Source: an uncultured Lysobacteraceae bacterium
GTDB lineage: Bacteria > Pseudomonadota > Gammaproteobacteria > Xanthomonadales > Xanthomonadaceae
Reading direction: 5' to 3'
Length of the DNA: 64,000 bases
NCBI GenBank assembly: GCA_902825775.1
Contig: CADECF010000007.1
Span: 114,457 to 178,456, forward strand
Shown here: positions 763-40,786 of the stretch, piece after piece
How positions within the stretch are numbered: position 1 is the first letter of the stretch
Layout of the letters: every line of letters begins with the position of its first letter
Notes under the pieces: generated by a model
Told to the model about the DNA's origin: nothing
The model's database searches: none
The model's input: only the letters and a program-made list of their open reading frames with translations
Program-made: the position numbers and the translations under genes

Positions 763-809
763 GCGGCCATGATAGTGGGCTGGCCCGCTTTTTTGCGAAG
801 CGGCTTTTT

Positions 810-932
810 GTGGGAGCGGCTTTTGTGGGAGCGGCTTCAGCCGCGAGCTCTTATCAGCATCTCATGCATGCTCAGGCCGAAAGCAGATCAAAAGATCGCG
901 GCTGAAGCCGCTCCCACAAAAGCCGCTCCCAC
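810..932. repeat. REP family 1 inverted pair
   Basis: Two arms of the repeat gtgggagcggctt...agccgc face each other, at about 810-850 and 894-932. Each arm contains a doubled gtgggagcggctt unit, and each can fold on its own. The pair lies between the convergent-side ends of the glycosyltransferase gene and rsmB. The same family recurs at 28313-28387. It probably forms an RNA hairpin at the 3' end of rsmB. Confidence 0.85.
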
Positions 933-955
933 GAAAAGCCGCTTCGGCAAGGCCG

Positions 956-2245: not shown

Positions 2246-3168
2246 GGGGTTTTCAGGTCGCGGCGCGCGTTCAAATAATCGGCGGCGCTGACCGGCTTGC
2301 CGCCATCGCGCTGCAGCGTACGGATGCGCAGCGCGCCTTCGCCGCAAGCGATGTCGATGCCGTCGCGATTCGCGACCAGCAACGTGCCGGGCGCGGCGCG
2401 ATGCGCCCGCGGCAGCGCCTGCGCGGCATGGATGCGTACGCGTTCGCCGGCGACTTCGCCCTCAGCGATGGGCCACGGGTTGAACGCGCGGACTTTATTC
2501 GCCAGCGCGGTAGCCGGTTGCGCCCAGCCGAGCTTGGCTTCGTGCTTTTCGATCTTATGGGCGTAGGTCACGCCGTCTTCCGGCTGCGGCTGCGCCACCG
2601 GTCGGATGCCGGCGCGCCACAGGCCCAGGCCGTCGGACAACGTCTGCGCACCGAGTTCGGCAAGGCGGTCGTGCAATTCGCCGGCCGTCTCCTCATCGCC
2701 GATCGCCAGCTTCTGCGACAACAGGACCGGGCCGGTGTCCAAGCCTTTTTCCATCCGCATCAGGCAGATGCCGGTCTCGCGGTCGCCGGCTTCGATCGCG
2801 CGCTGGATCGGCGCCGCACCGCGCCAGCGCGGCAGCAGCGAGGCATGCACGTTCCAGCAGCCGTAAGCCGGGATGTCGAGAATCTTCTGCGGCAGGATCT
2901 GGCCGTAGGCGACCACGATCATCAAATCCGGTTTCAACGCGCGCAATGCGTCGCGGGACAACTCGGTCTTCAGCGTTTCCGGCTGCAGTACGGGGATGCC
3001 GCGCTTCAAGGCTTCGAGTTTGACCGGCGATGCCTGCAACTCGCGGCCGCGACCGGCGGGACGATCGGGCTGCGTGTATACGGCGACCACTTCGCCGCGC
3101 GAAATCGCGGCGCGCAGCGAAGGTACGGCGAACTCCGGCGTGCCGGCGAAGACGATTCTCAGGGACAT
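2242..3168 (-). CDS. fmt: Methionyl-tRNA formyltransferase
   Basis: 308 aa, the usual length. It formylates Met-tRNAfMet using 10-formyl-tetrahydrofolate. The N-terminus [16 protein letters not shown] is characteristic. The formyl-transfer site [17 protein letters not shown] supplies Asn106 and His108, with Asp144 in GLDTGP. The C-terminal OB-like domain covers roughly residues 205-308. It is coupled to rsmB by an ATGA overlap and lies downstream of def, so initiator formylation and deformylation are encoded together. Confidence 0.97.
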
Positions 3169-3235
3169 GCTCGCTGCTTCGTTGCGTCATCAGGAACGAA
3201 GCGGTTGACCTGCTGTTGACGCCGCCGACGCGGGA

Positions 3236-3264
3236 GCAGATCCCTCACTTCGTTCGGGATGACA
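3236..3264. repeat. Palindromic repeat (gatccctcac/cgggatgac family), single arm
   Basis: One arm of the repeat reading gatccctcacttcgttcggg followed by atgac lies between def and fmt. The same arm occurs as a full inverted pair at 41718-41784. It lies inside the def-fmt operon, so it may affect mRNA processing. Confidence 0.65.
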
Positions 3265-3309
3265 GTGAAAAAGATGGCGCGTGTTGCGGCGCCAGCGGAA
3301 CGCCGGGAC

Positions 3310-3825
3310 TTACGCAGCGTCCTGCCGCTTCTGCTTGGCCAGCTTCTTGCGCACCATCTCGCGCTTGAGCGGCGACAGGTAGTCGACGAACAGTTTGCCG
3401 TCCAGATGATCCATCTCGTGCTGGACGCAGACCGCGAGCAGGCCGTCGATATCCAATTCGAAAGGCTGGCCGTGGCGGTCGAGCGCGCGCACCCGGATGC
3501 GGTTGGCGCGGGTCACGTCGGCGAAGATGCCCGGCACCGACAGGCAGCCTTCCTGATAGACCTGTTCGCCGTCTTTTTCGACGATGTCCGGATTTATGAA
3601 CACGAGCGGCTGGTTCTTCTCTTCCGAGACGTCGATCACCATGAAGCGCTGGTGCACGTCGACCTGGCTGGCGGCCAGACCGATGCCCGGCGCCTCGTAC
3701 ATGGTTTCGAACATATCGTCGAAAAGGCGCTGGAAAGCCGGATCGGCCAGGCGCGAGGGGTCCACGGGCACTGCCTTGGTGCGCAGGCGCGGATCGGGGA
3801 ATTCGAGTATTGGGAGCAGGGCCAT
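3310..3825 (-). CDS. def: Peptide deformylase
   Basis: 171 aa. A metal-dependent hydrolase that removes the N-formyl group from nascent proteins. All three class motifs are present: GIGLAASQ (47-54), EGCLS with metal ligand Cys94, and QHEMDH with two His ligands and catalytic Glu137. It is first in def-fmt-rsmB and divergent from the LysM gene at 3960; the 134-bp gap must hold both promoters. Sequence and context agree. Confidence 0.97.
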
Positions 3826-3959
3826 GGCTGGAAAATGGGGGTATCGGTCACAAGCGCAAGCGCTGGTGCGATTGTAACGCCGACGGGCTTGCCTTGTTGC
3901 GCTGTTTGTGGGCTATATTGCCGTCGCTGTTTGGGGAAATTCTCAAGGGGAGCGGGTAC

Positions 3960-5144
3960 ATGGCCGCCATGCTTAAGCGCCTTTCTCGGGGGCTTCGTAC
4001 GGTTTTTGCGGTAGCGATGCTCACTGTCGCCACCTATGCTGCGGCAGTCGAACTGCGCGGCGATCATCCTGACACCTACGTGGTCAGGCGCGGGGACACG
4101 TTGTGGGACATCTCGGCCCGCTTCCTCAAGAAGCCGTGGCTGTGGCCGGAGGTTTGGCAGGCCAACCCGCAAATCAAGAATCCGCACCTGATCTATCCGG
4201 GCGACGTGATCAGCCTGGCTTACCTGGACCGGTTGGCCGTCCAGCCCGGTCCGCGCCAAGAGGCCGCGCCGATCAACGCGATCCCGCTGGACCAGGTCGA
4301 GGCCTTCCTGAAGGACATGCGCGTCGTCGACGACTTCGAGCAGCTGCCCTACGTGGTCAGCATCGAAGGCGAACGCCTGCGCGGCACCCAGAACCACGTG
4401 GTCTACGTCCGCGGCCTGGCCGGCGCGCAACCGGGCCAGCGCTATATGGTGGTCCGCCCCGGCCAGCGCTACACCCAGACCCGGCGCGTCTCCAACGGCA
4501 AGTACCTGCCGTTCAAGGAAGACCTGGACTACCGCGGCAAGCGCATCCTCACCGAGACCAACGACCTCAACACCGGCTGGACCAGCATGGTCCTGTCCGA
4601 AGGTCCGCTGGAGCTGCTCGGTTACGAATTGGCGCGGGTCAACATCGGTACGGTCACCCGCGGCGAAGTGGGCGACATCCAGGTCAGCACGCTGCTGCTG
4701 GATGAAGTCGGCCGTGAAGTCCGGGTCGGCGACCGCGTGATTCCGGTCGATGCCCTGGCCTACGACCTGCAGTTCTTCCCGCACGCGCCCAAGACCCAGC
4801 TGCCGGTCGGCAAGGCGCAGGTGCTGGCGGTCGCCGATGCCAATATGTACGGCGGTCCGCGCGACGTGATCGCGATTTCGGCCGGCGCCCGCGACGGCAT
4901 CGACAACGGCACCGTGTTCTCGATCTGGAGCAACGGCAACAAGGTCATCGACCGCGTCGAATACGGCGACGACCGCAGCGACCTGTCCGTGCCCAAGGGC
5001 TCGCGCGTGCAGTTGCCCGACGAGTTCACCGGCCACGTGATGGTGTTCCGCACTTTCGACAAGATGAGCTACGGCCTGGTGATGGAAGGCATCAAGCCGA
5101 CCCGCATCGGTTATTCGCTCAAGCATCCCGACGCGACTTACTGA
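3960..5144 (+). CDS. LysM-domain cell-wall-binding protein
   Basis: 394 aa. It starts at the ATG at 3960, which has the purine-rich caaggggagcggg upstream; a longer open frame to 3810 overlaps def and is not protein-like. Residues 1-29 form a signal peptide ending TYAAA. A LysM follows (YVVRRGDTLWDISARFLKKP, with PGDVISL near its end), a domain that binds peptidoglycan glycan strands. The remaining 300 residues match LysM proteins found divergent from def in Xanthomonadaceae. I do not see a catalytic domain. Probably a periplasmic wall-associated protein of unknown exact role. Confidence 0.85.
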   Translation: MAAMLKRLSRGLRTVFAVAMLTVATYAAAVELRGDHPDTYVVRRGDTLWDISARFLKKPWLWPEVWQANPQIKNPHLIYPGDVISLAYLDRLAVQPGPRQEAAPINAIPLDQVEAFLKDMRVVDDFEQLPYVVSIEGERLRGTQNHVVYVRGLAGAQPGQRYMVVRPGQRYTQTRRVSNGKYLPFKEDLDYRGKRILTETNDLNTGWTSMVLSEGPLELLGYELARVNIGTVTRGEVGDIQVSTLLLDEVGREVRVGDRVIPVDALAYDLQFFPHAPKTQLPVGKAQVLAVADANMYGGPRDVIAISAGARDGIDNGTVFSIWSNGNKVIDRVEYGDDRSDLSVPKGSRVQLPDEFTGHVMVFRTFDKMSYGLVMEGIKPTRIGYSLKHPDATY

Positions 5145-5170
5145 GCGGGGTTTTCCTACGCTGATATGCG

Positions 5171-5198
5171 ACGGCGCCTTCGGGCGCCGTCTTCGTTT
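5171..5198 (+). terminator. Intrinsic terminator after the LysM gene
   Basis: An 8-bp perfect stem acggcgcc / ggcgccgt with a ttcg tetraloop is followed by cttcgttt, 27 nt after the LysM stop codon. Confidence 0.8.
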
Positions 5199-5216
5199 CG
5201 GGACTAGCCTGAAGCG

Positions 5217-24761: not shown

Positions 24762-27041
<2,280 letters not shown>

Positions 27042-28387: not shown

Positions 28388-28404
28388 AGAGTGCCCCGCT
28401 CGGC

Positions 28405-28872
28405 TCAAGCGCGATCGATCCGGCACGCGTAACAACCGCGGCGCGCGTTGTGCACGAGCAGGTAGCCGATCTTGGGATCCGCGAAGAACTTTTCGATCTT
28501 CGCTTCCAGCGCTGCGCCATCGACCACATCGGCCGCATGCATCCATCCGGCATCGTCGTAAGCACGCACCGACAGCAAGCGGCTGCGCTGCTGTTCCGGA
28601 ATTTCGTTGCGCGCTTCGAACGTCGCCCGCGCCGATTCGTTTACGAAGATCGGCCCGTCGCTGCGATAAGGCGTATCCGAATCCTGGTGCCGCCAATTGA
28701 GCAGCAATAGCGTTTCGCCGGGCTCCGCGTCCTGCAAAGTGACTCGGCACGGAAACCCGGGCTTGGCGTCGGCGACGTAACGCTTCGCACCGCGCGCGCT
28801 CAGCGCTTCCTCGCTCAAACCGAACAGCGGCCGGAAATCCTCCAGCGGCAATCCTCTGACGACATAGTTCAT
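28405..28872 (-). CDS. DUF1203 family protein
   Basis: 155 aa, starting at the ATG at 28872 (MNYVVRGLPLEDFRPLFGLS). The body shows the family's VADAKPGFPCRVTLQDAEPG and LLNWRHQDSDTPYRSDGPIF, and ends with CYACRIDRA. Function unknown; soluble and cytoplasmic by sequence. It lies downstream of rpoH but is separated from it by a strong terminator, so it is probably transcribed on its own. Confidence 0.85.
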   Translation of the reverse strand: MNYVVRGLPLEDFRPLFGLSEEALSARGAKRYVADAKPGFPCRVTLQDAEPGETLLLLNWRHQDSDTPYRSDGPIFVNESARATFEARNEIPEQQRSRLLSVRAYDDAGWMHAADVVDGAALEAKIEKFFADPKIGYLLVHNARRGCYACRIDRA

Positions 28873-28948
28873 GGCGCACTCCGTTCGTGGGAATGCGCGC
28901 AGGCTAACGGCCGCCCGCCGGAGCCGATATCCGCATCGTGCGCAACGC

Positions 28949-28974
28949 AAAACGGCCCGGTTTCCCGGGCCGTT
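28949..28974 (-). terminator. Intrinsic terminator of rpoH
   Basis: On the minus strand a 9-bp stem acggcccgg/ccgggccgt with a 4-nt loop is followed by ttttgcg, about 25 nt after the rpoH stop. Confidence 0.85.
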
Positions 28975-28998
28975 CGCGATCTATCGTGCCAGGCGCAA

Positions 28999-29874
<876 letters not shown>

Positions 29875-29885
29875 GGGCTCCGATT

Positions 29886-29912
29886 TTAGCAGTCGCCAGA
29901 TATGACTGCTAA
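29886..29912 (-). promoter_or_regulatory. Perfect inverted repeat in the rpoH leader
   Basis: Arms ttagcagtc and gactgctaa are separated by 9 nt and end 12 nt before the rpoH ATG. In RNA they would form a stem immediately before the ggag ribosome-binding site; in DNA they could be an operator. Confidence 0.55.
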
Positions 29913-30031
29913 GGGCGCCCAGAGTTCCCCAGCGTTTCGCTGATGGAACGCCGGAATGGGAAAACCACCCCCTTGCAGTCTCCGGATACTTAATTCGGTA
30001 CGCCAGGCCAGGAAATCAAGGCCCGCCATAG

Positions 30032-30148: not shown

Positions 30149-30952
30149 TCAGAAAGCCAGCCAGGAAAAATCCGGCTCCGGCAAGGCCTCCAGTCCGGGC
30201 CGCGCGTACAGGTAGCCTTGCTGCAGGTGAATGCCCAACGCGAGCAGCCGGCGGGCGTCGGCCTCAGACTCCACGCCTTCGGCCACCAGCGCGCAGCCGA
30301 GTTTGCCGGCGATGCCGATCACGCTCTCGATGATGGCCTGGCGCACGCTGTCGCCGCCGACGCCGCGCACCAGATGCATGTCGATCTTGAGCAATTGCGG
30401 CTGATAGCTGGCCAGCAAGCCGAGCCCGGCATGGCCGGCGCCGAAGTCGTCGATCGCCACGATGAAACCCATCGCCTGGTACGCCTGCAGCGATTCGGCG
30501 ATGCGTTGCTGATTCAACGGTTCGGATTCGGACAGTTCGAGGATCACGTGCCTGGGCGCCAGGCCCACGCTCTCGGCCGCGGCGCGCAGCGACATGATGG
30601 TGCCCGGGTGCACGAATGCGCTCGGCGCGAGATTCAGCGCCAGCCGCGTGCGCAGATCGAGCCGCGCGGCAGCGAACAGCGCCAGCAGCATGGTGCGATG
30701 GTCGAACACCGGGCGCCGCGCGTGCGGCACGGCGGCGAGCATTTCCAACGCACCCTGCCCTTGCGGGCCGCGTACCAACGCCTCGTAGGCGTACACCGAT
30801 TGGCGCTTGAGATCGACGATCGGTTGAAAAGCGATCCGCACGTGGCGGAATGCACCGCTCTCGGCGGCTTCGGTCGGATGGGCGCCCGCGACGGAGGCCA
30901 GCATGGGACTGTCGACCAGAGAATGCGACAGCGTGGAATCCAGGGATGTCAT
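30149..30952 (-). CDS. EAL-domain cyclic-di-GMP phosphodiesterase
   Basis: 267 aa. A stand-alone EAL domain without GGDEF, PAS or membrane part. The metal and catalytic positions look intact: YEALVRG (EAL motif), the Asn in ALNLAPS, LELSESE, AIDDFGAG, LLKIDMHL, VAEGVE and LQQGYLYARP. It should hydrolyse c-di-GMP to pGpG. The ATG at 30952 overlaps the stop of the outer-membrane gene (ATGA), so the enzyme is made in step with a surface-structure operon. Natural inference: local feedback that lowers c-di-GMP when the structure is expressed. Confidence 0.9.
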   Translation of the reverse strand: MTSLDSTLSHSLVDSPMLASVAGAHPTEAAESGAFRHVRIAFQPIVDLKRQSVYAYEALVRGPQGQGALEMLAAVPHARRPVFDHRTMLLALFAAARLDLRTRLALNLAPSAFVHPGTIMSLRAAAESVGLAPRHVILELSESEPLNQQRIAESLQAYQAMGFIVAIDDFGAGHAGLGLLASYQPQLLKIDMHLVRGVGGDSVRQAIIESVIGIAGKLGCALVAEGVESEADARRLLALGIHLQQGYLYARPGLEALPEPDFSWLAF

Positions 30953-32907
30953 CGCTGGCGTCCTGCGGGAATATCGAGTCGGGTGGTCTGCCGCACGTGC
31001 ACTTCGATCGTCCGCTGCGCGGCGGCGTCTTCGACGAACCACGGCAGCGGCAGATTGTCCGGCAGCACGGTCACGCGATGCGCGCCGACGGCCACGCGCG
31101 GGAATTCGAATTGGCCGTTGCTGTCGGTGCGCAACGAATAGCGGCCGTCGAGCACGATGGTGACGTTGGCCGCCGGCAGTTCCGATGCCGCGCGTACGCC
31201 GTCGTTGTTGTCGTCCAGGAACAGCGAGCCGGCGACGCTGCCGACCGCGGCGCCCGGCGCGCCGCCGATCACGGCCAGCGGCTGTCCGGCCTGACGGTCG
31301 TAGCGCAAGGTGAGGAACACCGAACGGTCGCGCGGCAGCGAAATGAACGGCGTATCGGTGACCAGCGGATCCAGGATGAAGGGCGAGCGCTGCGAACCCT
31401 GGCTCTGGTAGAACGCCGCGGCCAGCGACCAGCGCGGACGGATGCGCCAGTTCAAACCGATATTGAAATCCACGCCGCGGGTCGCGTTGGGACCATCTCC
31501 ATGGGTCCAGCGCGCGGTGCCGTCGATCGACAGGGTATCGGTGAGATCGCGCCCGCCATATAGCGAGACCGTGGTGGTCGCGGTGGCCGGTTCGCCGTCG
31601 TAGCTCAGTTCGCCATAGGCCAGCGACGCAGACAAACGCGCGCCGCCTCGCATCGGAAACGCCTGGTCGACGCTGGCCAGCCAGCTGTCGCCGCCGCCGT
31701 CGCCGCCTTCCGCGACATCGAACTGCAGGCGCGTCTGGCCCCAATGCGTGCTCTTGTCGGCGAACAACTGCGCGGCGTAGGTGTTCTCCGGCGTGTGGCG
31801 CACGCTCAAGCTGCCGCCGTAACCGAACGTGCTGCTGGCCTGATAGCGCGCGAAGCCGGTGCCGTACTGGCCGTCGAAGCCTTCGCCGCTGATCGAACGG
31901 ATGTCGTCCAGGCCCAGGTTCCAGCTCCAGCGCGCGAACTGGTACGCGATGCGGTAATAGCCGCCGCGGATATCGTTGTTGATCGGCAGCGCGCCCCACG
32001 CCAAACCGGGATCCAGCGAGAACACGCCGTAGTTGTGGCGGTAGCGCCCGCGCCTGGCGCTGGCGTCGATCCATGCGCCCTGCGCTTGGCCTTCCTCGGC
32101 ATCGCTCGCCAATGCGTTGAACTGCACCGTATCGCGCTCGCCTTCCCAACCGGTGGCCACGTGCACGGCGTGCGTTTCGTCGTCGACGAAAGTGGCTTCG
32201 CCCAGATCGTCCGGCTCGATGCGGCCATGCGTGCCGAGATAAGACGCCGCACCGGTCCAGCCCGGCGCCCATTGCCATTGCGCGCCGGCCGAAGCGACGT
32301 AGCCGTCGGCCAGATCGAAACCGACTACGCGCGAGCCGTTGTACATGCCTGCGCGGCCTACCGCGCCGAAGAGAGTAACGCCGCCTGCATTCTTGGTCGC
32401 CTGGCTGCTGACGCCGGCGAAAGCCACGGTCGGTAGGAAGAAGCGGTATTGCTCGCGCTGCAATCCCAGCGAAGGCGTGTTGATCACGCCCAGGCCGTTG
32501 TCGACGCGCCAGCCGCCGTCGACGTACAGATTGCGCTGCCAAAGCGTCGCCGCGCCGCCCCAGCCGCCGTCGCGCTCGAAGCGCTCGCGGTCGCTGTGGA
32601 ACAAGGTGGCATCCAACGAAAAGCTGCCCCAGGTCGGCGTTTCCCAGAAGCCGCCCGCGGCGATGCCTTCTTCGTTGAAAGTTTCATCGCCGCGCTCGGT
32701 GCGCGCCGCCACGGCTTCGAGGTGATAGGCGCGCGGCAAGCCGCCGGCGTCGACGGGCTCTTCGTCGTCCGGCGGCAACGGCGCCAGCGATTCGGCCGCG
32801 ATGATGCGGTCGCGGTAGGGCGCGTCCTGCGCGTGCGCGGCGCTCGCGACGATGGCGGCGAGCGCCATGGCCAGCGTTCGCCGACGGATGTTGTGCCGGA
32901 ATTTCAT
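30949..32907 (-). CDS. Large outer-membrane protein of a fimbria-like operon, usher-like in position but not FimD-like in sequence
   Basis: 652 aa, start at the ATG at 32907 overlapping the chaperone stop (ATGA). A signal peptide (about 1-27, ends SAAHA) leads to roughly 480 residues of alternating aromatic and polar residues typical of beta-barrel strands (SFSLDATLFHSDRERFERD, TVSLYGGRDLTDTLSIDGTA). The C-terminal 90 residues form an SdrD_B/carboxypeptidase-regulatory-like beta-sandwich (VAGSLFLDDNNDGVRAASEL, SNGQFEFPRVAVGAHRVTVL). I do not recognise the FimD N-terminal and plug domains. Position after subunits and chaperone suggests an export pore or anchor. Confidence 0.7.
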   Translation of the reverse strand: MKFRHNIRRRTLAMALAAIVASAAHAQDAPYRDRIIAAESLAPLPPDDEEPVDAGGLPRAYHLEAVAARTERGDETFNEEGIAAGGFWETPTWGSFSLDATLFHSDRERFERDGGWGGAATLWQRNLYVDGGWRVDNGLGVINTPSLGLQREQYRFFLPTVAFAGVSSQATKNAGGVTLFGAVGRAGMYNGSRVVGFDLADGYVASAGAQWQWAPGWTGAASYLGTHGRIEPDDLGEATFVDDETHAVHVATGWEGERDTVQFNALASDAEEGQAQGAWIDASARRGRYRHNYGVFSLDPGLAWGALPINNDIRGGYYRIAYQFARWSWNLGLDDIRSISGEGFDGQYGTGFARYQASSTFGYGGSLSVRHTPENTYAAQLFADKSTHWGQTRLQFDVAEGGDGGGDSWLASVDQAFPMRGGARLSASLAYGELSYDGEPATATTTVSLYGGRDLTDTLSIDGTARWTHGDGPNATRGVDFNIGLNWRIRPRWSLAAAFYQSQGSQRSPFILDPLVTDTPFISLPRDRSVFLTLRYDRQAGQPLAVIGGAPGAAVGSVAGSLFLDDNNDGVRAASELPAANVTIVLDGRYSLRTDSNGQFEFPRVAVGAHRVTVLPDNLPLPWFVEDAAAQRTIEVHVRQTTRLDIPAGRQR

Positions 32908-33701
32908 TTGGCGACGGCGGTATCGATGGCCAGGCGCTGCGCGCCCCACTCCAACCTGCCTTTCAGCTGCACCGGAAACGCGATCGGCGGCGCCGGCGTG
33001 TCGGGGTCGTCGCCTTCGGGCACGAGCGAAATCGCACGCGTTTCCCCGGGCAGAAGCGGGATGCTGGAGGGCGCGAACACGAACTTGCGGCCTTGCGCGT
33101 CGACGCCGTCGATCAAGCCGGCGAGACGGCCGTGCGCGTTGCCGCTATTGCGGATCTGCAGCACAGGCACGACGCGGCCATCGACGGTCTCGGCCTTGCC
33201 GCCGACGAGGGACAGCTGCGCGGCGGCGTTGCCGATGGTGAGATAGACGATGATGCCGATGCGGCCGGAGACGTCCGGCACGGCGCTGCCGGCGACCCGC
33301 TCCGGATCGCCTTCCAGCAGGATCGCGAAACGGCACTCGCCGGTGGGCGCATCGGCGGGCACCGCCACTTCGAAGCGATAGCGGCGTTTGCCGTTGGCGG
33401 CGACGTTGATCTCGGCCGCCTCCAGGCCCACCCAAGGCCTGCAGCTGTTCGGCGCCAGCGCATCGGCGAATACCGCGGCGGCGTTGCCGTCCAGCGTCCA
33501 GTCCGCGGTGCGCAGGGTGTAATGCGCGCTCGAGTTGGAGACGTTCGAAATTTCCACCACGTTGCGGTACGTCGTGCCGGGCTTCACGGCGTCTTCGAAA
33601 CGCGGCGGCGACACCAGCGCGGAAAAACCTTGCGCGGCGGCGGCGGCCGAAGCCAGCGAGCCGAACGCCAAAAACGCGGCCTGCATCAAGATGCGCGACA
33701 T
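32904..33701 (-). CDS. PapD-like periplasmic pilus chaperone
   Basis: 265 aa. Signal peptide (about 1-23, ASAAAAA), then two immunoglobulin-like domains. Domain 1 starts ALVSPPRFEDAVKPGTTYRN and includes IKVF-like strand RIGIIVYLTIG, where G1-strand donor residues of fimbrial chaperones lie. Domain 2 (about 150-265) contains LQIRNSGNAHGRLAG. The canonical PapD Arg-Lys pair cannot be assigned with confidence by eye. It is coupled at both ends (TGATG upstream, ATGA downstream). It most likely binds the subunits encoded upstream and delivers them to the outer-membrane protein. Confidence 0.75.
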   Translation of the reverse strand: MSRILMQAAFLAFGSLASAAAAAQGFSALVSPPRFEDAVKPGTTYRNVVEISNVSNSSAHYTLRTADWTLDGNAAAVFADALAPNSCRPWVGLEAAEINVAANGKRRYRFEVAVPADAPTGECRFAILLEGDPERVAGSAVPDVSGRIGIIVYLTIGNAAAQLSLVGGKAETVDGRVVPVLQIRNSGNAHGRLAGLIDGVDAQGRKFVFAPSSIPLLPGETRAISLVPEGDDPDTPAPPIAFPVQLKGRLEWGAQRLAIDTAVAK

Positions 33702-34168
33702 CACGGACCCTCCAGGTCGATCTCGAACGTGAAATTGAGTTGCTCGGTGCGCTCCAGCCGCTGGCCGTCGGCCTGGATGACCAGCCGCATCGTGTCTTCG
33801 AGCAGTCCGCCGGGCATCGTGCCGGCGTACACCAGCGTGCGTTCGCCGGCGCGCAACGTGCCGGGCAGCAGGCGGCCGCGCGTCGTCCAGGTGGCGGTCA
33901 CCGGGCCGGTCGCCTGCGCGGGCAGCGTCATGTAGACGCGGCCCGTGCGGCCCTGCCACGGCGCCAGGTTCAAGCGCACCAATACGGTGATCGCACCGGA
34001 GACCGTCGGCCGTTGGCCGCGCTGCGGAGCGGCCGTGTCCCACTTCATCTTCAACGTGCTGCCCAGCACCTGGCTGGCGCTGTCGTCGACGCGATGCGTG
34101 GTCTTGGCCATGGCCGGCGATGCCGCCAGCAGCAGGCCCAACGCGAGCGAGAGCGCGCGCAGGCTCAT
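33701..34168 (-). CDS. Small secreted protein of the fimbria-like operon
   Basis: 155 aa from the ATG at 34168, which overlaps the preceding stop (ATGA). Signal peptide about 1-21 (SPAMA). The mature 134 residues are beta-rich with no Cys and end QLNFTFEIDLEGP, an alternating hydrophobic strand of the sort fimbrial subunits or adaptors use for donor-strand pairing. I recognise no named family. By position it could be a tip, adaptor or anchor subunit. Confidence 0.65.
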   Translation of the reverse strand: MSLRALSLALGLLLAASPAMAKTTHRVDDSASQVLGSTLKMKWDTAAPQRGQRPTVSGAITVLVRLNLAPWQGRTGRVYMTLPAQATGPVTATWTTRGRLLPGTLRAGERTLVYAGTMPGGLLEDTMRLVIQADGQRLERTEQLNFTFEIDLEGP

Positions 34169-34800
34169 GGCGCGCTCAACGTGTACACGACACGTCCCGT
34201 GTAGGTGCCGGCGGCCACGACCGCATCGTTGCTGTAACGGAAGCTGTGGCAGCTTTCGCGCCAAGTGTTGGATGGGAAACTGGCGAGCGTTTGCGTACCG
34301 GTGCTGAAGCTGCCGGCAGGCACCGGCTGCGCGGCGTTGCCGTCGCCGTTGCCGCTGCTGGTCCAGTTGATCTGCGAGAACGGAATGGTGTCGCCGGTCC
34401 CATTGGTCAGGCCGGCCGGCACCGCCGCTGTCAACGTGGCGGTGCCCGAGCCGCTCGGGCGCCGGTAGAAACCGCCGATATAGATTTCCGCGGGCACGTT
34501 GCAGAAGGCGTAGCCGTCGTAGTTGCTGATGCCGGTGGTCGCGTTGGTCGTCATCGCCAGATCCGTACCGTTGCCCAACACGGCGGCGGGCACGGCGACG
34601 GAGACGAGATTGATGGCGCCGCCGTTCTGCGGCGTGCCGCCGTTGCTGTAATTGTTGCTGCTGAACGCGCCATTGCCCACGCGCAGGTACACCATCCGCG
34701 GGCCCGGATCGATGCTGACCACGAAAGCATGGGCCGCATCGCTGGCGCACAGCGCGAACAACAGCAGCAGCCCTCGCAGGCCGCGCGCAGACAAAGACAT
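34165..34800 (-). CDS. Secreted subunit-like protein, minor paralogue
   Basis: 211 aa. A good ribosome-binding site (ccggggagag) precedes the ATG at 34800. Signal peptide about 1-23 (ASDAAHA). The mature part is Gly/Asn/Thr-rich and contains MVYLRVGNGAF near the start and VAAGTYTGRVVYTLSAP at the end, matching the layout of the protein encoded upstream (ILYLRVGAGND, SRVTYTASMP). It has two Cys residues (FCNVP and ESCHSF) that could form a disulphide, which the other paralogue lacks. Probably a minor pilus-like subunit. Confidence 0.7.
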   Translation of the reverse strand: MSLSARGLRGLLLLFALCASDAAHAFVVSIDPGPRMVYLRVGNGAFSSNNYSNGGTPQNGGAINLVSVAVPAAVLGNGTDLAMTTNATTGISNYDGYAFCNVPAEIYIGGFYRRPSGSGTATLTAAVPAGLTNGTGDTIPFSQINWTSSGNGDGNAAQPVPAGSFSTGTQTLASFPSNTWRESCHSFRYSNDAVVAAGTYTGRVVYTLSAP

Positions 34801-34822
34801 GGGACTCTCCCCGGTTCCATCG

Positions 34823-34857
34823 AAAAAACCGCAAGGCCGATTCCCCCGGCCTTGCGG
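34823..34857 (-). terminator. Intrinsic terminator between the first and second subunit-like genes
   Basis: On the minus strand a perfect 11-bp stem (ccgcaaggccg/cggccttgcgg, 7-nt loop) is followed by six T residues, 17 nt after the stop of the first gene. It should make the first gene's mRNA more abundant than that of downstream genes. Confidence 0.88.
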
Positions 34858-34873
34858 GTACAGCAGCCTTCGA

Positions 34874-35497
34874 TTACGGCATCGAAGCGGTGTAGGTCAC
34901 GCGGCTGTTGTTGGCGTTGGTGCCGCCGTAGACGCCGGGCGCCACGACGTTGTCGTTCTCGTACGCGAAGGTCCAGCGCGCGTCGCGGTTGATCACCTTG
35001 CCGCTGGCCGGGGTCAGCGCGACGGTCGTGGTGGCGCCATCGGCCAGGGCCGGGTGCGGCAGCGGCGTGCCCGGAGTCAGCGCGGCGACCGCGGCGCTGA
35101 TCTGGCTGTAGCTGATGGTGTCGCCGGCGCCATTGTTCAACGCGCCCAGCGTGGTGGAACTGAAAGTGATGTTGCCGTTGTTGCCGATGACGCGAGCGGT
35201 CACGGTGCCGTTGTTCAAGTCGCCCGAGGCCGGCGTGGCCGCGATCGCGCCGCCGTCGCCGATGTTGGCGGCGGGCACGACGAAGGCGATCTGGTTGATG
35301 GTGCCCAGGTTCGCGAAGTCGTTACCGGCGCCCACGCGCAGGTACAGGATCTTCGGCACCGTCACCTGGAAGTCCAGGCGGGCGCTGGCGGTGAGCGGCG
35401 TGCCGGTGCCGGTCGTGAAGGTCGACTCGGCATTGGCCATCATCGGGACGGCAGCCAGCATTGCAGCGGCCAGCAAGGTCTTGGTCATGGTGCGCAT
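34874..35497 (-). CDS. Secreted subunit-like protein, probable major subunit
   Basis: 207 aa. The ATG at 35497 has ggggag 8-9 nt upstream; an internal ATG at 35488 is also possible. Signal peptide about 1-23 (VPMMANA). The mature part starts ESTFTTGTG, has LDFQVTVPKILYLRVGAG, many Gly/Asn/Thr/Ala, no Cys, and ends PGVYGGTNANNSRVTYTASM, an alternating final strand. It is first in the operon, 17 nt before a strong terminator, and 75 nt after a sigma-54-like promoter: a typical arrangement for an abundant structural subunit. No named family recognised. Confidence 0.72.
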   Translation of the reverse strand: MRTMTKTLLAAAMLAAVPMMANAESTFTTGTGTPLTASARLDFQVTVPKILYLRVGAGNDFANLGTINQIAFVVPAANIGDGGAIAATPASGDLNNGTVTARVIGNNGNITFSSTTLGALNNGAGDTISYSQISAAVAALTPGTPLPHPALADGATTTVALTPASGKVINRDARWTFAYENDNVVAPGVYGGTNANNSRVTYTASMP

Positions 35498-35570
35498 AGC
35501 GGAAAGACTCCCCAGTCATTTATTAGGTAATGGGCCGAGAAGTGATTTCTCCTGCCTCGCGGGGGGATAG

Positions 35571-35587
35571 AGCAGAAACCATGCCAA
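35571..35587 (-). promoter_or_regulatory. Sigma-54 (RpoN) promoter candidate
   Basis: Minus strand ttggcatggtttctgct has the invariant GG-N10-GC spacing of -24/-12 promoters and matches the consensus at all but two positions of the conserved blocks (TGGCAC to tggcat, TTGC to ctgc). It would start transcription near 35560, about 63 nt before the first subunit-like gene. Confidence 0.7.
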
Positions 35588-35613
35588 ATAGCGATTTAGG
35601 CCCGTTTTTTTCA

Positions 35614-35770: not shown

Positions 35771-36601
35771 CTACCCGGCGGTATCCACGCACGCCAGTTC
35801 GCGACAGAACGCGGCAGTCGCCTCGTCCTCCGGAAACGCGCATTCGATCCGCAGTTCTTCCAGGGTCACATCGCGCGGCGTGCCGAAGGTGGTGATGGTG
35901 GAGAAGAAGCGCAGGTCGCGGCCATTGTGGCGGAAGTGCGTCGTCAGCAGCGGCGTCGGCGCGGCGGCTACGTCGCGGTTGCGCCAGTGTTGCGGCACGT
36001 CGGGATAGGCCAGCGTCTGTTCGAGCAGATCGCGAAGCCCGGCATCGGTCGGCGTCGCCGCCACTTCGCTGTGCAGATGGCGGATCAGGTCGCCTGCGAT
36101 CTCTTCCCAGTTGACGATCTTCGACCGCAGGTCCGCCGGATCGAAGATGTTGTGCAACATGTTGGTATGCGGGCTTGCGCGCCCGTCGAGCACGAATGCG
36201 CTCACGCGCGCCGCGGCCGCATTGGCGGCCAGCACGTCCCAATGCCGGTTGAGCAGGAAGGCGGGATAAGGTTCCTGCTGCGCGAGCATCGAATCGATCG
36301 CGCGCCTGATCTGCGCCATCATCGGTGTGGCGAGCGCGGTTTCAGGGTATTTGGGCGCGTAACCGGCTGCGACCAGCAACGCATTGCGTTCGCGCAGCGG
36401 CATCGCCAGCGTATCGGCGAGCTTGTCCACCAGTTCGCGGCTGGGTTGGGCTTTGCCCGTCTCCACGTAACTGAGATGGCGGGCCGAAACGCCGGCGTCC
36501 AACGCCAGGCTCAGCTGGCTCAATCGGCGCGAGGCGCGCCATTCGCGCAGCAGCGCGCCGATCGGCGCGATCCCGGCGACGCGGTGTTCGATCGTAGGCA
36601 T
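35771..36601 (-). CDS. XRE-family regulator with MmyB-like ligand domain
   Basis: 276 aa from the ATG at 36601; an ATG six codons earlier (36619) is also open. The N-terminal helix-turn-helix is RLSQLSLALDAGVSARHLSYVETGK. The remaining 190 residues match the MmyB-like ligand-binding domain (PAFLLNRHWDVLAANAAAA, FSTITTFGTPRDVTLEELRI). It is divergent from the alpha/beta-hydrolase at 36741 across 139 bp that contain two tandem 17-bp palindromes, so it probably represses that gene and itself until a ligand binds. Confidence 0.9.
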   Translation of the reverse strand: MPTIEHRVAGIAPIGALLREWRASRRLSQLSLALDAGVSARHLSYVETGKAQPSRELVDKLADTLAMPLRERNALLVAAGYAPKYPETALATPMMAQIRRAIDSMLAQQEPYPAFLLNRHWDVLAANAAAARVSAFVLDGRASPHTNMLHNIFDPADLRSKIVNWEEIAGDLIRHLHSEVAATPTDAGLRDLLEQTLAYPDVPQHWRNRDVAAAPTPLLTTHFRHNGRDLRFFSTITTFGTPRDVTLEELRIECAFPEDEATAAFCRELACVDTAG

Positions 36602-36634
36602 GCGGCGAGCATAAGCCACCGCCGTAGCGAAGCC

Positions 36635-36674
36635 ATGACCTGCCAGGTCATGGCGCCATAACCTGGCACGTCAT
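36635..36674. promoter_or_regulatory. Tandem 17-bp palindromic operators
   Basis: Site 1 atgacctgccaggtcat (36635-36651) is a perfect dyad, extended to gcc...ggc. Site 2 ataacctggcacgtcat (36658-36674) differs at three positions. The centres are 23 bp apart, about two helical turns, so two dimers would sit on the same DNA face. They lie between the XRE gene and the hydrolase. Confidence 0.8.
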
Positions 36675-36740
36675 TGAGTCCATGCGGGCCGCTGCCCAAG
36701 ATCGTCTCCCAACGGGCGCATCGCCCTAGGGAGCGCAGAC

Positions 36741-37721
36741 ATGCGACGCAGACAATTCATGGGATGGGCAGGCGGCGCCCTGGCGATGGTCGCCACCGGT
36801 CTGCCCGCCATCGCGCGGGCCGCTTCGTCCGGCGCATCCGCACAACCGGCCACGATCACCGATGCCAAGGCTTGGAACGCCGCGCGTCGTTTCGCGAAGA
36901 CCCGCTTCGGCGAGATCGCCTACGTCGACCGCGGCAGCGGACCGGCCGCGCTGTTCCTGCACGGATTTCCGTTGAACGGCTTCCAATGGCGCGGCGCGTT
37001 CGACCGCCTCGCCGGCGATCGTCGCCGTTGCCTGGCGCCGGATTTCATGGGCCTGGGCTACACCAAAGTCGCGGCAGGCCAAAGCCGCGATCCGCAAGCG
37101 CAGGTGGACATGTTGATCGCATTCCTGGACGAGCGCGGCGTGGATGCGGTGGATATCGTCGCCAACGACAGCGGCGGCGGCGTCGCCCAATTGTTCGTCG
37201 TGCAGCATCCCGGACGGGTGCGCAGCTTGTTGCTGACCAATTGCGACACCGAACCCGACTGCCCGCCGCCCGCGCTGAAGCCGGTGCTGGATCTGTCGCG
37301 CGAGGGCAAGTTCGTCGAGCAATGGCTGGCGCCGGATCTGGCCGACAAGAAACGGGCGCGCTCGGCGCAGGGCCTGGGCGGGGCGACGTTCTCGTTCCGG
37401 GTCAGCCCGACCGACGAAGCGGTGGATATGTATCTGGGACCCTTGGTTCGCAATCCCGACAACACCCATGCCTATGCCCTGGGATTGGAAAAAAACTTCC
37501 TGGCCGGGATCGAGGCCAAGCTCAAAGCCAGCCGCGTGCCGACGCGAATCGTCTGGGGGATGGCCGACGATATTTTCCTGTCGTCGAGTCCGGACTACTT
37601 GGACCGCGTCCTCGGCGCATCGCGCGGCGTGCGCAGGATCGCCGAAGCCAAGCTGTTCTTCCCGGAAGAGTTCCCCGACGTGATCGCCCAGGAAGCGCGC
37701 ACATTGTGGGACGTGGGCTGA
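36741..37721 (+). CDS. Exported alpha/beta-hydrolase, paralogue 2
   Basis: 326 aa. Twin-arginine-like leader MRRRQFMGWAGGALAMVATG, cleavage near ARAASS. The fold shows FLHGFPLNGFQWRGAFDRLA and the nucleophile elbow NDSGG, with VWGMADDIF towards the end. Very close in sequence and leader to the 11763-12746 protein (shared PLNGFQWRGA, LLTNCD, FPEEFPD). Such proteins are annotated broadly as haloalkane dehalogenase- or epoxide hydrolase-like, but the serine elbow does not allow a substrate call. Probably controlled by the divergent XRE/MmyB-like regulator. Confidence 0.87.
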   Translation: MRRRQFMGWAGGALAMVATGLPAIARAASSGASAQPATITDAKAWNAARRFAKTRFGEIAYVDRGSGPAALFLHGFPLNGFQWRGAFDRLAGDRRRCLAPDFMGLGYTKVAAGQSRDPQAQVDMLIAFLDERGVDAVDIVANDSGGGVAQLFVVQHPGRVRSLLLTNCDTEPDCPPPALKPVLDLSREGKFVEQWLAPDLADKKRARSAQGLGGATFSFRVSPTDEAVDMYLGPLVRNPDNTHAYALGLEKNFLAGIEAKLKASRVPTRIVWGMADDIFLSSSPDYLDRVLGASRGVRRIAEAKLFFPEEFPDVIAQEARTLWDVG

Positions 37722-37750
37722 TCGCGCAGCGGCCTATGCCGTGGCTCTTT

Positions 37751-37879: not shown

Positions 37880-39148
37880 TTAGAGCACTGCGTCCGGCGC
37901 ACGCAATGCGCCGGACGTCTGCGCGCGCGGCGCGCGTCCGTAGCTCAATCGCCGCCACAGCGCTTCCATCGGCCCGAACGGATAACGCTTCAGCCAGATC
38001 CGGCACAGCAGCGCGAGCGCCAGCCACACCGCCAGCGCGACCAGCAGGCTGACGCCGACGCTGGTCTTCTGGAACATGCCGAAACCGATGCCGTAGAACA
38101 GCGTCACGCAGACCACGCTTTGGCTCAGGTAATGGGTCAGCGCCATGCGTCCGCTGGCGACGAAGAGGTTGCCGCTGCCGCGCGTCTTGCGCCAATACAA
38201 TGCGAACATCGCGGCATAGCCCAGGCTGAGCAGCGGTATGCCCACCGATCCCAGCGTGATCGACAACAGGCCCGTGAGGCTGGCCGGCACCAACACGTCG
38301 TTGCCGCCGATCGCGGCGAACGCCAGATTCATCGGCAAGCCGATCGCCAAACCCAACGCCAGCCAGCGCTTGAGCATGGGTCGCAGCGCATCGCGTGCGG
38401 CCAGCAGGCCGATTTTGCCGGCCCAAGCGCCGAGCAGGAACATGCCGAAGATGCGCAGCAACTGGAAACGGTAGATGCGCCGGACCCAGGCGAAAACATA
38501 GATCATCGTGTTGGATTCCAACACGTCCGGGTAACCGCCGCGCGCGTAGTTGTCGATGATCTTCTGCATGCCGGCGCTGGTTTCCGGCGGCGCGATCAGC
38601 GCCGCCTGGGTCATCAGCGCGAATCCGAGATATGCCGTGTACAACCAGATCGGCGCGGTGAGGAAGAAGATCGCCCAGCCCAGCAACGCGCGTGCCGACA
38701 TCTTGCGGAACAGCAGCAGCGCGAAGCCCATCAACGCGTAGAAATTCAGGATGTCGCCGAACCAGATGAAGATCGCATGCGCCAGGCCGAACGCCAGCAG
38801 CCAACCCATGCGCCGCCGGAACACCGTCTTGAAATCGCCGCCGCGCGCTTCGGCGCGCTGCAATTGAACGGCGAAACCCAAACCGAACAGGAACGAGAAC
38901 AACGAATAGAACTTGGCTTCGACCAGGGCATGCTCGAGATAGTTCAGCACGCCGTCGGCGCCGCTCCACGGCAACGAAGCTTTCGCATCCGGCCCCATGA
39001 ACGCGTAACCGCTGAAGGCGATGATGTTGGCGAACAGGATGCCGAGCAAGGCGAAGCCGCGCAGCGCGTCCAGCCACTCGGAACGTTCGTTGAGGCTGGT
39101 CGGCGCTAACGCCGCTGGAACCGGAAATTCGGAGGATGGGTTGTTCAT
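37880..39148 (-). CDS. DUF418 membrane protein, copy 1
   Basis: 422 aa. About ten membrane segments. The N-terminus ERSEWLDALRGFALLGILFANI and the C-terminal half (GRMALTHYLSQSVVCVTLFYG, ending KRYPFGPMEALWRRLSYG) are the DUF418 signature (YeiB-like). Family function is unknown; a link to envelope or acyltransferase-like chemistry has been suggested from the DALRGFALLGI motif shared with acyltransferase 3 proteins. It lies 39 bp from a second DUF418 gene on the same strand. Confidence 0.88.
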   Translation of the reverse strand: MNNPSSEFPVPAALAPTSLNERSEWLDALRGFALLGILFANIIAFSGYAFMGPDAKASLPWSGADGVLNYLEHALVEAKFYSLFSFLFGLGFAVQLQRAEARGGDFKTVFRRRMGWLLAFGLAHAIFIWFGDILNFYALMGFALLLFRKMSARALLGWAIFFLTAPIWLYTAYLGFALMTQAALIAPPETSAGMQKIIDNYARGGYPDVLESNTMIYVFAWVRRIYRFQLLRIFGMFLLGAWAGKIGLLAARDALRPMLKRWLALGLAIGLPMNLAFAAIGGNDVLVPASLTGLLSITLGSVGIPLLSLGYAAMFALYWRKTRGSGNLFVASGRMALTHYLSQSVVCVTLFYGIGFGMFQKTSVGVSLLVALAVWLALALLCRIWLKRYPFGPMEALWRRLSYGRAPRAQTSGALRAPDAVL

Positions 39149-39187
39149 CGATAAGACTCTATAACGTGAGCGGCGTTAGCGCCGGGA

Positions 39188-40786
39188 CTAGGCGCTTTCG
39201 GCAGTAATGGCGGGCGCGGACGCGCGACGCCTGAATAGGGGCGGCCAGCGCGCATAGGTCGCCGCGCGCCACAGCCATTCGGCGGGGCCGAAATGGAAGC
39301 GAGACATCCACCAGCGGCTCGCGAGCACCTGCAGCGCGAAGACGCCGATCACCAGCGCCAGTTGGCCGATACGATCGATGCGGTTCGACAGACCCAGACC
39401 GTAGCCGTAGAAGATCAACGTGCCGATCGCCGATTGCATCAGATAATTCGTCAACGCCATGCGCCCCGCCGGCGCCAGCCACCGTAGCCGCAAACCGTCG
39501 CGGCCGTGGATGAAGAGCACCAGCGCGCTCACATAGCCCAGGCTCAGCAGCAAGTTGGCGACCGTCATCAGATTGGCGGCCAGGAACGCTTGATCGCGCT
39601 TCGCGGGATCGTCGCCGGTGTAGAACGCCGCGCTGCATAACGCCAGCGCCGCACCGACGGCGACGCCGAACGCCGCTAACCGCCGGAACAATCCTCGATG
39701 CGCTTGCACATTGCCGATCACGTCGGCGCGCACGAACCAGAATCCGATCAGGAACATGCCCATGACCGAAATCAGCAAATACACTTCGCCGGCGGACAGC
39801 ATCTCGGTGAAATAGTCCCAGCGCAGCGCGACGTTCTCGGCATAGCTGCCGTGGGCGTTGATCGACGCGGCTTGCGCGGCCTCGGCTTGCACGGCGGCGA
39901 AGGCGGCATGGGCCGCTTGCGCGGTCGGCGCCGGCGCCGACGCGTCCAATTTCCCGAGCAGGATCGTCGCGCTGATCGCCAACGGCAGGATCAGATAGAT
40001 CGCCGCGCCGGCCCGCCACAATCGCGACATGCCGGGCGGCCGCAGGAAAGCCGTGGCCGCGGCCAGCAAGCTGGCGCTGACCGTCGCCGCCAGCGGAACG
40101 AAACCGGGCGAAGCGATCCAGAGCGCACAGAAACCCACGGCGGCCGCTGCAAGCAGCCACGACAACGCCTTCGCGTACGGGAATCGTCGTCGGCCGTTCT
40201 CCGCCGCGGGCTTTTCCTGCAGGAAAGCACCAGCGCCGGCGAACATCAGGAACGCGATCATCGCGGTGAACAGCGGCCGGCTGCTGCCCCAGAACACCTG
40301 CGCGAGCAGGAACCCGAGCGAAGGCAGCAACAACCACCACCAGCGTCCGCGCAGCGCGATCAGCAGCACGCAGGCCGCGATCGCGTAGCTGTGCAGGATG
40401 TCGCCGCCCCATACCAGCACGGCATGGGCCACGCCCATCGCCATCAACGCGGCGGTGCGGCGCAGATAAGGCGCCGCGAAACTGCGGCCCTGCGCCTGCG
40501 CGCGGCCCAGCATCACCGCGAAGCCCATGCCGAACAGCAAGGCGAACATGGTCCAGAATTTGCCGTGCATGAACACGTATTCGAACCAGGCCAGCGCGTG
40601 GTTCAGGCCATGCAGGCCGGGTTCGATCATCCGCTCCGCCGCCTGCAGCGGTCGCGCGAAGTATTCGACGTTCATCAGGAACACGCCGAACAACGCGACG
40701 GCCCGCACGATATCGAGCGTGACGATGCGTTGCGGCTCGGCAATGGGCGACAACGCCGATGGCATCGGCGCAGGAGGGCTGTGCAT
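39188..40786 (-). CDS. DUF418 membrane protein, copy 2
   Basis: 532 aa, about 110 longer than copy 1 because of an extra central block with several additional hydrophobic segments and an Ala-rich loop (APTAQAAHAAFAAVQAEAAQ). It shares the family start (IVTLDIVRAVALFGVFLMNV) and end (GRMALTNYLMQSAIGTLIFY, SRFHFGPAEWLWRAATY). Tandem with copy 1 and probably co-transcribed, so duplicated and diverged. Function unknown. Confidence 0.88.
   Translation of the reverse strand: MHSPPAPMPSALSPIAEPQRIVTLDIVRAVALFGVFLMNVEYFARPLQAAERMIEPGLHGLNHALAWFEYVFMHGKFWTMFALLFGMGFAVMLGRAQAQGRSFAAPYLRRTAALMAMGVAHAVLVWGGDILHSYAIAACVLLIALRGRWWWLLLPSLGFLLAQVFWGSSRPLFTAMIAFLMFAGAGAFLQEKPAAENGRRRFPYAKALSWLLAAAAVGFCALWIASPGFVPLAATVSASLLAAATAFLRPPGMSRLWRAGAAIYLILPLAISATILLGKLDASAPAPTAQAAHAAFAAVQAEAAQAASINAHGSYAENVALRWDYFTEMLSAGEVYLLISVMGMFLIGFWFVRADVIGNVQAHRGLFRRLAAFGVAVGAALALCSAAFYTGDDPAKRDQAFLAANLMTVANLLLSLGYVSALVLFIHGRDGLRLRWLAPAGRMALTNYLMQSAIGTLIFYGYGLGLSNRIDRIGQLALVIGVFALQVLASRWWMSRFHFGPAEWLWRAATYARWPPLFRRRASAPAITAESA

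Follow-up and report, generated by a model that had tools for sequence, protein, structure and literature searches.

In known chaperone-usher pathways, the usher forms a barrel of 24 strands, a folded N-terminal domain recruits the subunits and a plug closes the pore. The usher plug is described in PMC4356140, and PMC4654587 sets out the marks of the chaperones: a proline in strand D1 that is invariant across the superfamily, a conserved arginine in strand F of domain 1 of archaic (Csu-type) and alternative (Ecp/CFA-type) chaperones (Arg89 in CsuC), and an anchor tyrosine in domain 2 of archaic chaperones (Tyr196 in CsuC). Here, we analyzed a six-gene operon in a 64,000-nucleotide stretch of DNA (hereafter the window) from an uncultured Lysobacteraceae bacterium; the genome measures 3.76 Mb, and the operon is located on its contig C7. 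We consider it likely that genes 1 to 5 of this operon specify a fibre assembly pathway that resembles chaperone-usher systems, has a pared-down pore and is of a type absent from the family libraries searched.

Genes 1 to 5 are a conserved module in many environmental proteobacteria. A collection scan of named genomes with the gene 4 pattern SCRPW[VA][GRA][IL]E confirmed 168 relatives, the best 80 of which were kept as loci; residues 86-94 of gene 4 are invariant across these 80 because the pattern built this in. The relatives come from Lysobacter, Pseudoxanthomonas, Arenimonas, Vulcaniibacterium, Hydrogenophaga, Variovorax, Polaromonas, Ideonella and many metagenome-assembled proteobacteria. 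Profiles detected the subunit, gene 3 and gene 4 types in 80/80 loci each and the gene 5 type in 78/80, the loci without it being a 3.6-kb contig (L090) and a Polaromonas locus (L121). The order subunit, gene 3, gene 4, gene 5 on one strand is kept in 76 of the 80, and at least two subunit open reading frames (ORFs) are present in 71, with several loci ending at a contig edge. Since the first five types recur together across the 80 loci and keep their order in 76, this arrangement is not a product of chance. We also took 14 further regions around gene 4 or gene 5 matches in more distant genomes. Subunit, gene 4 and gene 5 types occur together in 13 of them and the gene 3 type in 12 (it is absent from L177), while in the L175 region gene 4 is the sole type matched. 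In these distant genomes, inversion of the outer-membrane gene (L173, L174 and L178) or its move to the first place (L176 and L177) does not separate the module genes. Two loci, L105 from Hydrogenophaga borbori (168-5214) and L113 from a Burkholderiaceae metagenome-assembled genome (1770-5166), hold a second set of module genes immediately upstream of the first.

Across 274 genomes of the class, gene 5 matches were found in 21, 11 of them strong (E<=1e-16) and 10 weak; three of the weak matches cover part of the barrel and seven the C-terminal domain only. Gene 4 matches were found in 15 genomes, 12 strong (E<=1e-30) and three weak. All 11 genomes with a strong gene 5 match also have a strong gene 4 match, and the twelfth strong-gene 4 genome, G384, which has no strong gene 5 match, is 55% complete. 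Gene 3 matches occur in nine genomes, all within the strong-gene 5 set, leaving gene 3 undetected in G185 and G270. Across the phylum, 9 of 398 genomes match gene 4 (three strongly, six at E 1.6e-20 to 3.6e-6), and a search with gene 4 in the family to which the window's genome belongs gave a match in 23 of 149 (22 strong, one weak). A tblastn search with gene 4 returned no match in the plasmid collection. Within the genus, two of four genomes carry the cluster. The sequences that flank it in the window (28399-30021 and 35778-37733) are separated by 115 bp in G099, and the corresponding flanks (to 29954 and from 35820) by 614 bp in G072, the cluster being absent from both; with flanks this close together, the cluster is therefore present or absent as a unit. 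Its borders are a sigma-factor-type gene (RpoH-like by reading) on one side and a helix-turn-helix gene on the other. A shared genomic position was not found, as these two genes and two more neighbours were undetected in the 80 loci at E<=1e-20, with flanks of at most 8 kb, many of them ended by contig edges.

A previous annotation made from the letters of the window, which we call the sequence-only reading, described six minus-strand genes with overlaps of 1-4 bp among the last five. The ORFs bear this out: stop/start overlaps of 1-4 bp connect genes 2 to 6, and a gap of 73 bp lies between genes 1 and 2 (Table 1).

Table 1. Features of the operon, with positions counted from the first nucleotide of the window
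Feature	Position	Strand	Description
Gene 1	34874-35497	minus	207 amino acids (aa); probable major (shaft) subunit; signal peptide, N-terminal extension of ~25 residues, pilin-like domain up to the C-terminus
Gene 2	34165-34800	minus	211 aa; second subunit, paralogue of gene 1, conserved Cys pair, shorter N-terminus; probable tip subunit
Gene 3	33701-34168	minus	155 aa; small secreted protein without known family; accessory or subunit
Gene 4	32904-33701 (ATG) or -33704 (GTG)	minus	265/266 aa; two-domain PapD-superfamily-like periplasmic chaperone
Gene 5	30949-32907	minus	652 aa; usher-like outer-membrane protein
Gene 6	30149-30952	minus	267 aa; EAL-domain protein, lineage-specific accessory
Hairpin	34829-34857	minus	12 pairs, terminator-like, then TTTTTT, in the gene 1/gene 2 gap; may act as an attenuator or stabiliser to the benefit of gene 1

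The same reading recognized no named family for three of the six proteins, which understates the case: five of the six have no Pfam match above cut-off. These are the five core proteins of the window, genes 1 to 4 having no meaningful match and gene 5 only a sub-threshold C-terminal match to CarboxypepD_reg/SdrD_B. For genes 1 to 5, NCBIfam gave chance-level matches only and phage families gave none at E<=0.01. Rfam returned a single match between 28500 and 37500, far under the threshold of its family, and a scan for sigma-70-type promoters gave none.

By profile comparison, gene 4 is a divergent homologue of archaic/alternative PapD-type chaperones across both of its tandem immunoglobulin (Ig)-like domains, an architecture predicted from profile alignment. 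A 64-member gene 4 profile (A4) aligned by hhalign over 192 columns with five archaic chaperones, chosen as PF00345 matches adjoining SCPU genes (96.5%, E 7e-10), and over 220 columns with the single L154 chaperone (98.0%). Other single sequences ranged from L159 (98.8%) and L163 (82.8%) through L151 (35.5%), L153 (31.9%) and L152 (13.0%) to FimC (0.6%); reversed controls gave 5.9% for L154 and less than 1% for the other targets. A genome search with A4 reached L163 (E 3.6e-6), a PF00345 protein (E 7e-14) beside two SCPU proteins, and L162 (E 2.2e-10), for which PapD_N is a borderline match (E 0.0042, under cut-off) and which adjoins an 869-aa usher-like protein. These profile and genome-search matches assign the kinship of gene 4 to non-classical chaperones. 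PF00345 (PapD_N) itself matches none of the 64 members above cut-off and only one at all (E 0.074), and a PF00345 search of the window's own genome returned a contig C2 gene alone. Further gene 4 relatives occur in four genomes of another family, f216 (L158-L161), with no subunit or pore genes noticed alongside in these short loci; in L158 and L159, nearby genes read as Maf-type and phosphatase-type.

An arginine and alternating hydrophobic residues in the G1 strand of gene 4 recur in most of the aligned chaperones, both those of the archaic group and those of L154 and L162. Positions 148, 150 and 156 are I/V/L in 64/64 members, position 152 is V in 62/64 (M once, F once), and position 154 is V/L/I in 48/64 and Ala in 16/64. 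At the column aligned with the invariant proline (position 95), Pro is found in 0/64 members (position 96 has it in 14/64), and at the column of the anchor tyrosine (215), Tyr is found in 0/64 and Pro in 64/64, both assignments being alignment-dependent. Arg124, present in 63/64, occupies the same column as in L154 and L162, two columns off the archaic arginine. Because the proline and tyrosine are absent at the aligned columns and the arginine is shifted, we read gene 4 as a protein that would work like a pilus chaperone, yet would stand outside any described chaperone class. The chaperone-usher logic proposed by the sequence-only reading is upheld by the homology of gene 4 over both domains together with the pilin-like model of gene 1.

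Tandem Ig-like domains also occur in Gram-positive WxL/WxL-interacting-protein clusters, and a non-polymeric surface complex of that kind, in which gene 4 would hold secreted Ig-like proteins at the surface and gene 5 would be a pore or anchor, might be considered. Gene 4 relatives weakly match WxLIP_PGBD (7/64 members, best E 0.016) and EfmWxLIP1 in the PDB (E 0.2), and an AlphaFold2 prediction, reported in PMC10599100, has a DUF916 strand inserting into WxL. However, gene 4 matches pilus chaperones more strongly, the Pfam matches of 120 subunit members include no WxL family, and gene 4 by reading has no C-terminal transmembrane helix. With weak matches only, the WxL-type complex was rejected and appears very improbable.

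Genes 1 and 2, the subunits of the proposed fibre, are homologous (profile comparison 99.7%; BLASTP 33% identity), and each protein has the YLRVG block as well as the RV(T/V)YT strand at its C-terminus, features that the sequence-only reading had picked out. The AlphaFold2 model of gene 1 (pLDDT 90.8) is pilin-like, with a modest likeness to chaperone-usher pilins: its domain runs to the C-terminus behind an N-terminal extension. Gene 2 is without most of this extension and has a conserved cysteine pair, C100 and C184. Among 60 gene 1-type and 60 gene 2-type members, no known Pfam pilin family, such as Fimbrial, SCPU or CS1-type, was matched at E<=0.1. An extra gene 1-type ORF of ~160 aa follows gene 5 in 10/80 loci (L094, L096, L100, L103, L110, L111, L114, L116, L118 and L120). 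A 'bindosome' identity, raised by a weak NCBIfam match of gene 2 to BasC (E 0.058), was dropped; among the papers listed, the term is mostly tied to archaeal type IV pilin structures. Gene 3, placed between the subunits and the chaperone, showed no kinship to chaperones, pilins, subunits, PDB entries or Pfam. It is undetected in G270, which has an extra subunit-type ORF ahead of the chaperone, and is therefore probably dispensable for the exporter.

Between genes 1 and 2, the 12-pair hairpin followed by T6 is the longest stem in a terminator scan that gave five sites in total against 4.5 expected. An 86-nt stretch containing it has a z of -1.13, and 29/200 shuffles are equally stable, so its stability is not unusual. 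Among relatives, the gene 1/gene 2 gap has a strict terminator-like hairpin in 5/73 cases (0.14% in shuffles) and a stem of at least 11 pairs in 26/72 (1.6% in mononucleotide shuffles), counts that are not independent because the loci are related. Such a hairpin after the gene for the major subunit would be consistent with shaft protein being required in excess.

The AlphaFold2 model of gene 5 (pLDDT 88.2, pTM 0.79) has ~26 barrel strands, counted from the listed elements, in residues 59-540 and one C-terminal beta domain (555-650). Residues 1-58 form no globular domain in the model and are mostly of low confidence. The model has no plug insertion: the longest gap between strands is 24 residues (503-526), and the turn between strands 6 and 7 is four. 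The N-terminal tail (~24-58) is conserved, with a Y-x-D-R-x-I block and an invariant D33, and is a candidate docking peptide. In a Foldseek search of the PDB with this model, ranks 1-14 were all FimD/PapC (E 8.5e-14 to 6.6e-8), followed by an Mtr-complex barrel at 1.1e-7 and then by four further usher entries, with porins appearing from 9.2e-7; TM-scores were ~0.3-0.4. VIA placed PapC and the porin OpdQ equal in Z (16.8 each), with 416 vs 298 aligned residues and a root-mean-square deviation of 12.2 vs 7.9. In sequence, hhalign of the gene 5 barrel with seven usher or usher-like proteins gave C-terminal or short spurious matches only and no barrel match. PF00577, TcfC and CooC_C are absent from the matches of 52 gene 5 members at E<=0.1, and SdrD_B and CarboxypepD_reg match 52/52; the same libraries do recognize ushers at L148, L149 and L150 (PF00577) and at L152 (TcfC). 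The view of gene 5 as a non-FimD outer-membrane part thus holds for its missing usher families and for a model without N-terminal domain or plug, and fails to allow for the fourteen FimD/PapC structures at the head of the Foldseek matches.

These results bear on two different accounts of the pore. In one, the operon belongs to a described chaperone-usher class, is merely diverged in sequence and has a normal usher. The chaperone homology of gene 4, the pilin-like gene 1 and the usher-like barrel of gene 5 all agree with it, and a missing PF00577 alone does not exclude an usher, because the L152 usher matches TcfC and not PF00577. Yet none of the three usher families appears in the 52 members, PF00345 is confined to the single sub-threshold gene 4 member, the gene 5 model has neither N-terminal domain nor plug, the invariant proline is absent at the aligned gene 4 column, and a recognizable archaic-type cluster, with PF00345, SCPU and PF00577 matches, already exists on contig C2 of the same genome. 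We regard this account as improbable; a canonical usher for gene 5 was rejected for want of a Pfam usher match and of a plug and N-terminal domain in the model.

In the other account, the pore does not descend from ushers: a different family of large barrels was recruited to the chaperone-subunit pair, and the resemblance to ushers is convergence. Three genomes in which gene 4 is undetected encode shorter outer-membrane-type proteins of ~430-560 aa whose relatedness to gene 5 covers its first half (L036:1393-3072, 559 aa; L037:1456-2748, 430 aa; L038:174-1703, 509 aa), without C-terminal domain or Pfam match, and such barrels keep recruitment in consideration because they occur where gene 4 is not detected. 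The count of ~26 strands against the 24 of ushers, the lack of a barrel-level profile match to ushers and the position of the Mtr-complex barrel as the next Foldseek fold also point this way. Against it, ushers come first by Foldseek E-value, ushers likewise have a beta domain after the barrel, and the C-terminal domain of gene 5 matches one in the 869-aa L175 protein (87%, 35% identity), with the reverse search from the L175 domain returning the window's gene 5 at E 2.7e-4. That link counts for less since the L175, L154 and L180 proteins have no Pfam usher match and are ushers by reading only; the unconfirmed usher label of the 869-aa L175 and 833-aa L154 proteins weighs against our own preference as well. 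We hold recruitment to be a possible but rather doubtful origin, and one that is compatible with the best explanation of how the system works. The L175 (3992-6598) and L154 (6798-9299) proteins lie beside PapD_N-type chaperones and are possibly another unmodelled usher group.

Gene 6 was taken by the sequence-only reading as built-in turnover of cyclic di-GMP (c-di-GMP). The order of the first five genes recurs in other genomes; an EAL gene is found in just 3/80 loci and in 2/14 further regions (G032 and G116), and directly behind gene 5 in 2/78 loci, L052 (4-bp overlap) and L126 (10-bp gap). Because so few loci have one, the EAL gene is a local addition, and its protein is a lineage-specific accessory outside the conserved set. 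An EAL gene integral to the machine, coupling fibre assembly to c-di-GMP breakdown, could be argued from the 4-bp overlap of genes 5 and 6 in the window, the EAL match itself (Pfam, residues 36-252, E 3.4e-45) and an EAL gene at the matching place in G032 and Lysobacter antibioticus HS124, but the counts above make it distinctly unlikely.

Gene conservation, chaperone homology, the predicted folds of genes 1 and 5, the absence of plug and N-terminal domain in the gene 5 model and the difference in N-terminal length were computed. Inference adds the exchange of donor strands, the assignment of shaft and tip, the tail as docking site, the route of export and what the hairpin and EAL gene do. In the pathway that we favour, the subunits encoded by genes 1 and 2 would reach the periplasm with an open Ig/pilin groove, which the G1 strand of the gene 4 chaperone, with its conserved alternating hydrophobics, would cap. 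The gene 5 pore, with one C-terminal domain and neither plug nor globular N-terminal domain, would take up the complexes, possibly through the Y-x-D-R-x-I tail, and export the fibre. Gene 1 would form the shaft, its N-terminal extension being able to act as donor strand, and gene 2, missing most of that extension, would form the tip and start the chain. Gene 3 may be a subunit or a periplasmic accessory, the hairpin behind gene 1 may keep the shaft subunit in excess, and the EAL protein would be a lineage-specific add-on. A bolder proposal goes beyond this pathway: a fibre-assembly lineage outside the described chaperone-usher families, with a large plug-less barrel (possibly no usher descendant) as exporter, a short disordered tail that takes in the chaperone-subunit complexes in place of a folded docking domain, a shaft subunit with and a tip subunit without donor strand. 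We put it forward tentatively, as somewhat short of an even case.

The sequence-only reading was right in outline and is partly supported; it was wrong on an integral EAL gene and drew the line between the pore and FimD too hastily. As far as prediction goes, the module is real and widespread, an unmodelled variant of fibre assembly of the chaperone-usher type. A conserved, recurrent exporter apparently without docking domain and plug would reveal a minimal fibre exporter, and as a natural deletion variant it would allow tests of recruitment and gating. The module also points to surface structures in relatives among Lysobacter, Pseudoxanthomonas, Arenimonas, Hydrogenophaga, Variovorax and Polaromonas. 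Annotation by family will probably overlook these structures, since in the window not one of the five core proteins matches Pfam above cut-off. Elsewhere in the window, a PriA-like ORF contains FPPFEKGG/PPPFSKGG repeats (26587-26838) that look like an in-frame inserted palindromic repeat, and two neighbouring membrane-protein ORFs of similar layout (422 and 532 aa) upstream of the operon (37880-40786) look like a tandem pair.

The open-access literature on new, minimal or plug-less usher pathways and on Lysobacter, Hydrogenophaga and Variovorax systems, in the portions accessible to us, gave no description of this module, which is weak evidence of novelty because open-access papers alone were covered. 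Compared with WxL-interacting proteins (DUF916/DUF3324), gene 4 shares tandem Ig-like domains and a weak similarity in the N-domain; it differs in its closer match to pilus chaperones, in subunits without WxL family and in belonging to another cell envelope. With the archaic and alternative pathways, the module shares a two-domain chaperone homologous over both domains, the G1-strand arginine and alternating hydrophobics seen in most archaic chaperones aligned, a pilin-like subunit, and an operon of subunits, chaperone and outer-membrane protein. It differs from them in a pore without PF00577, TcfC or CooC_C, in subunits without Pfam pilin family, in a gene 5 model without N-terminal domain, plug or second C-terminal domain, in a chaperone without the invariant proline and archaic anchor tyrosine at the aligned columns, and in an additional small conserved protein, gene 3. 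FimD/PapC ushers are the nearest PDB folds to gene 5 by Foldseek and share its layout of barrel then beta domain, whereas gene 5 has ~26 strands, no plug insertion and no globular domain in residues 1-58 of the model. Larger usher-like proteins with SdrD_B/CarboxypepD_reg-type C-terminal domains (L175, 869 aa; L154, 833 aa) are longer than gene 5 and, by reading, have additional parts at both the N-terminal and the C-terminal end. Gene 5 and L175 have matching C-terminal domains, and the chaperones of both systems are close to gene 4; lacking a Pfam usher match, these proteins may therefore belong to the same undescribed territory as gene 5.

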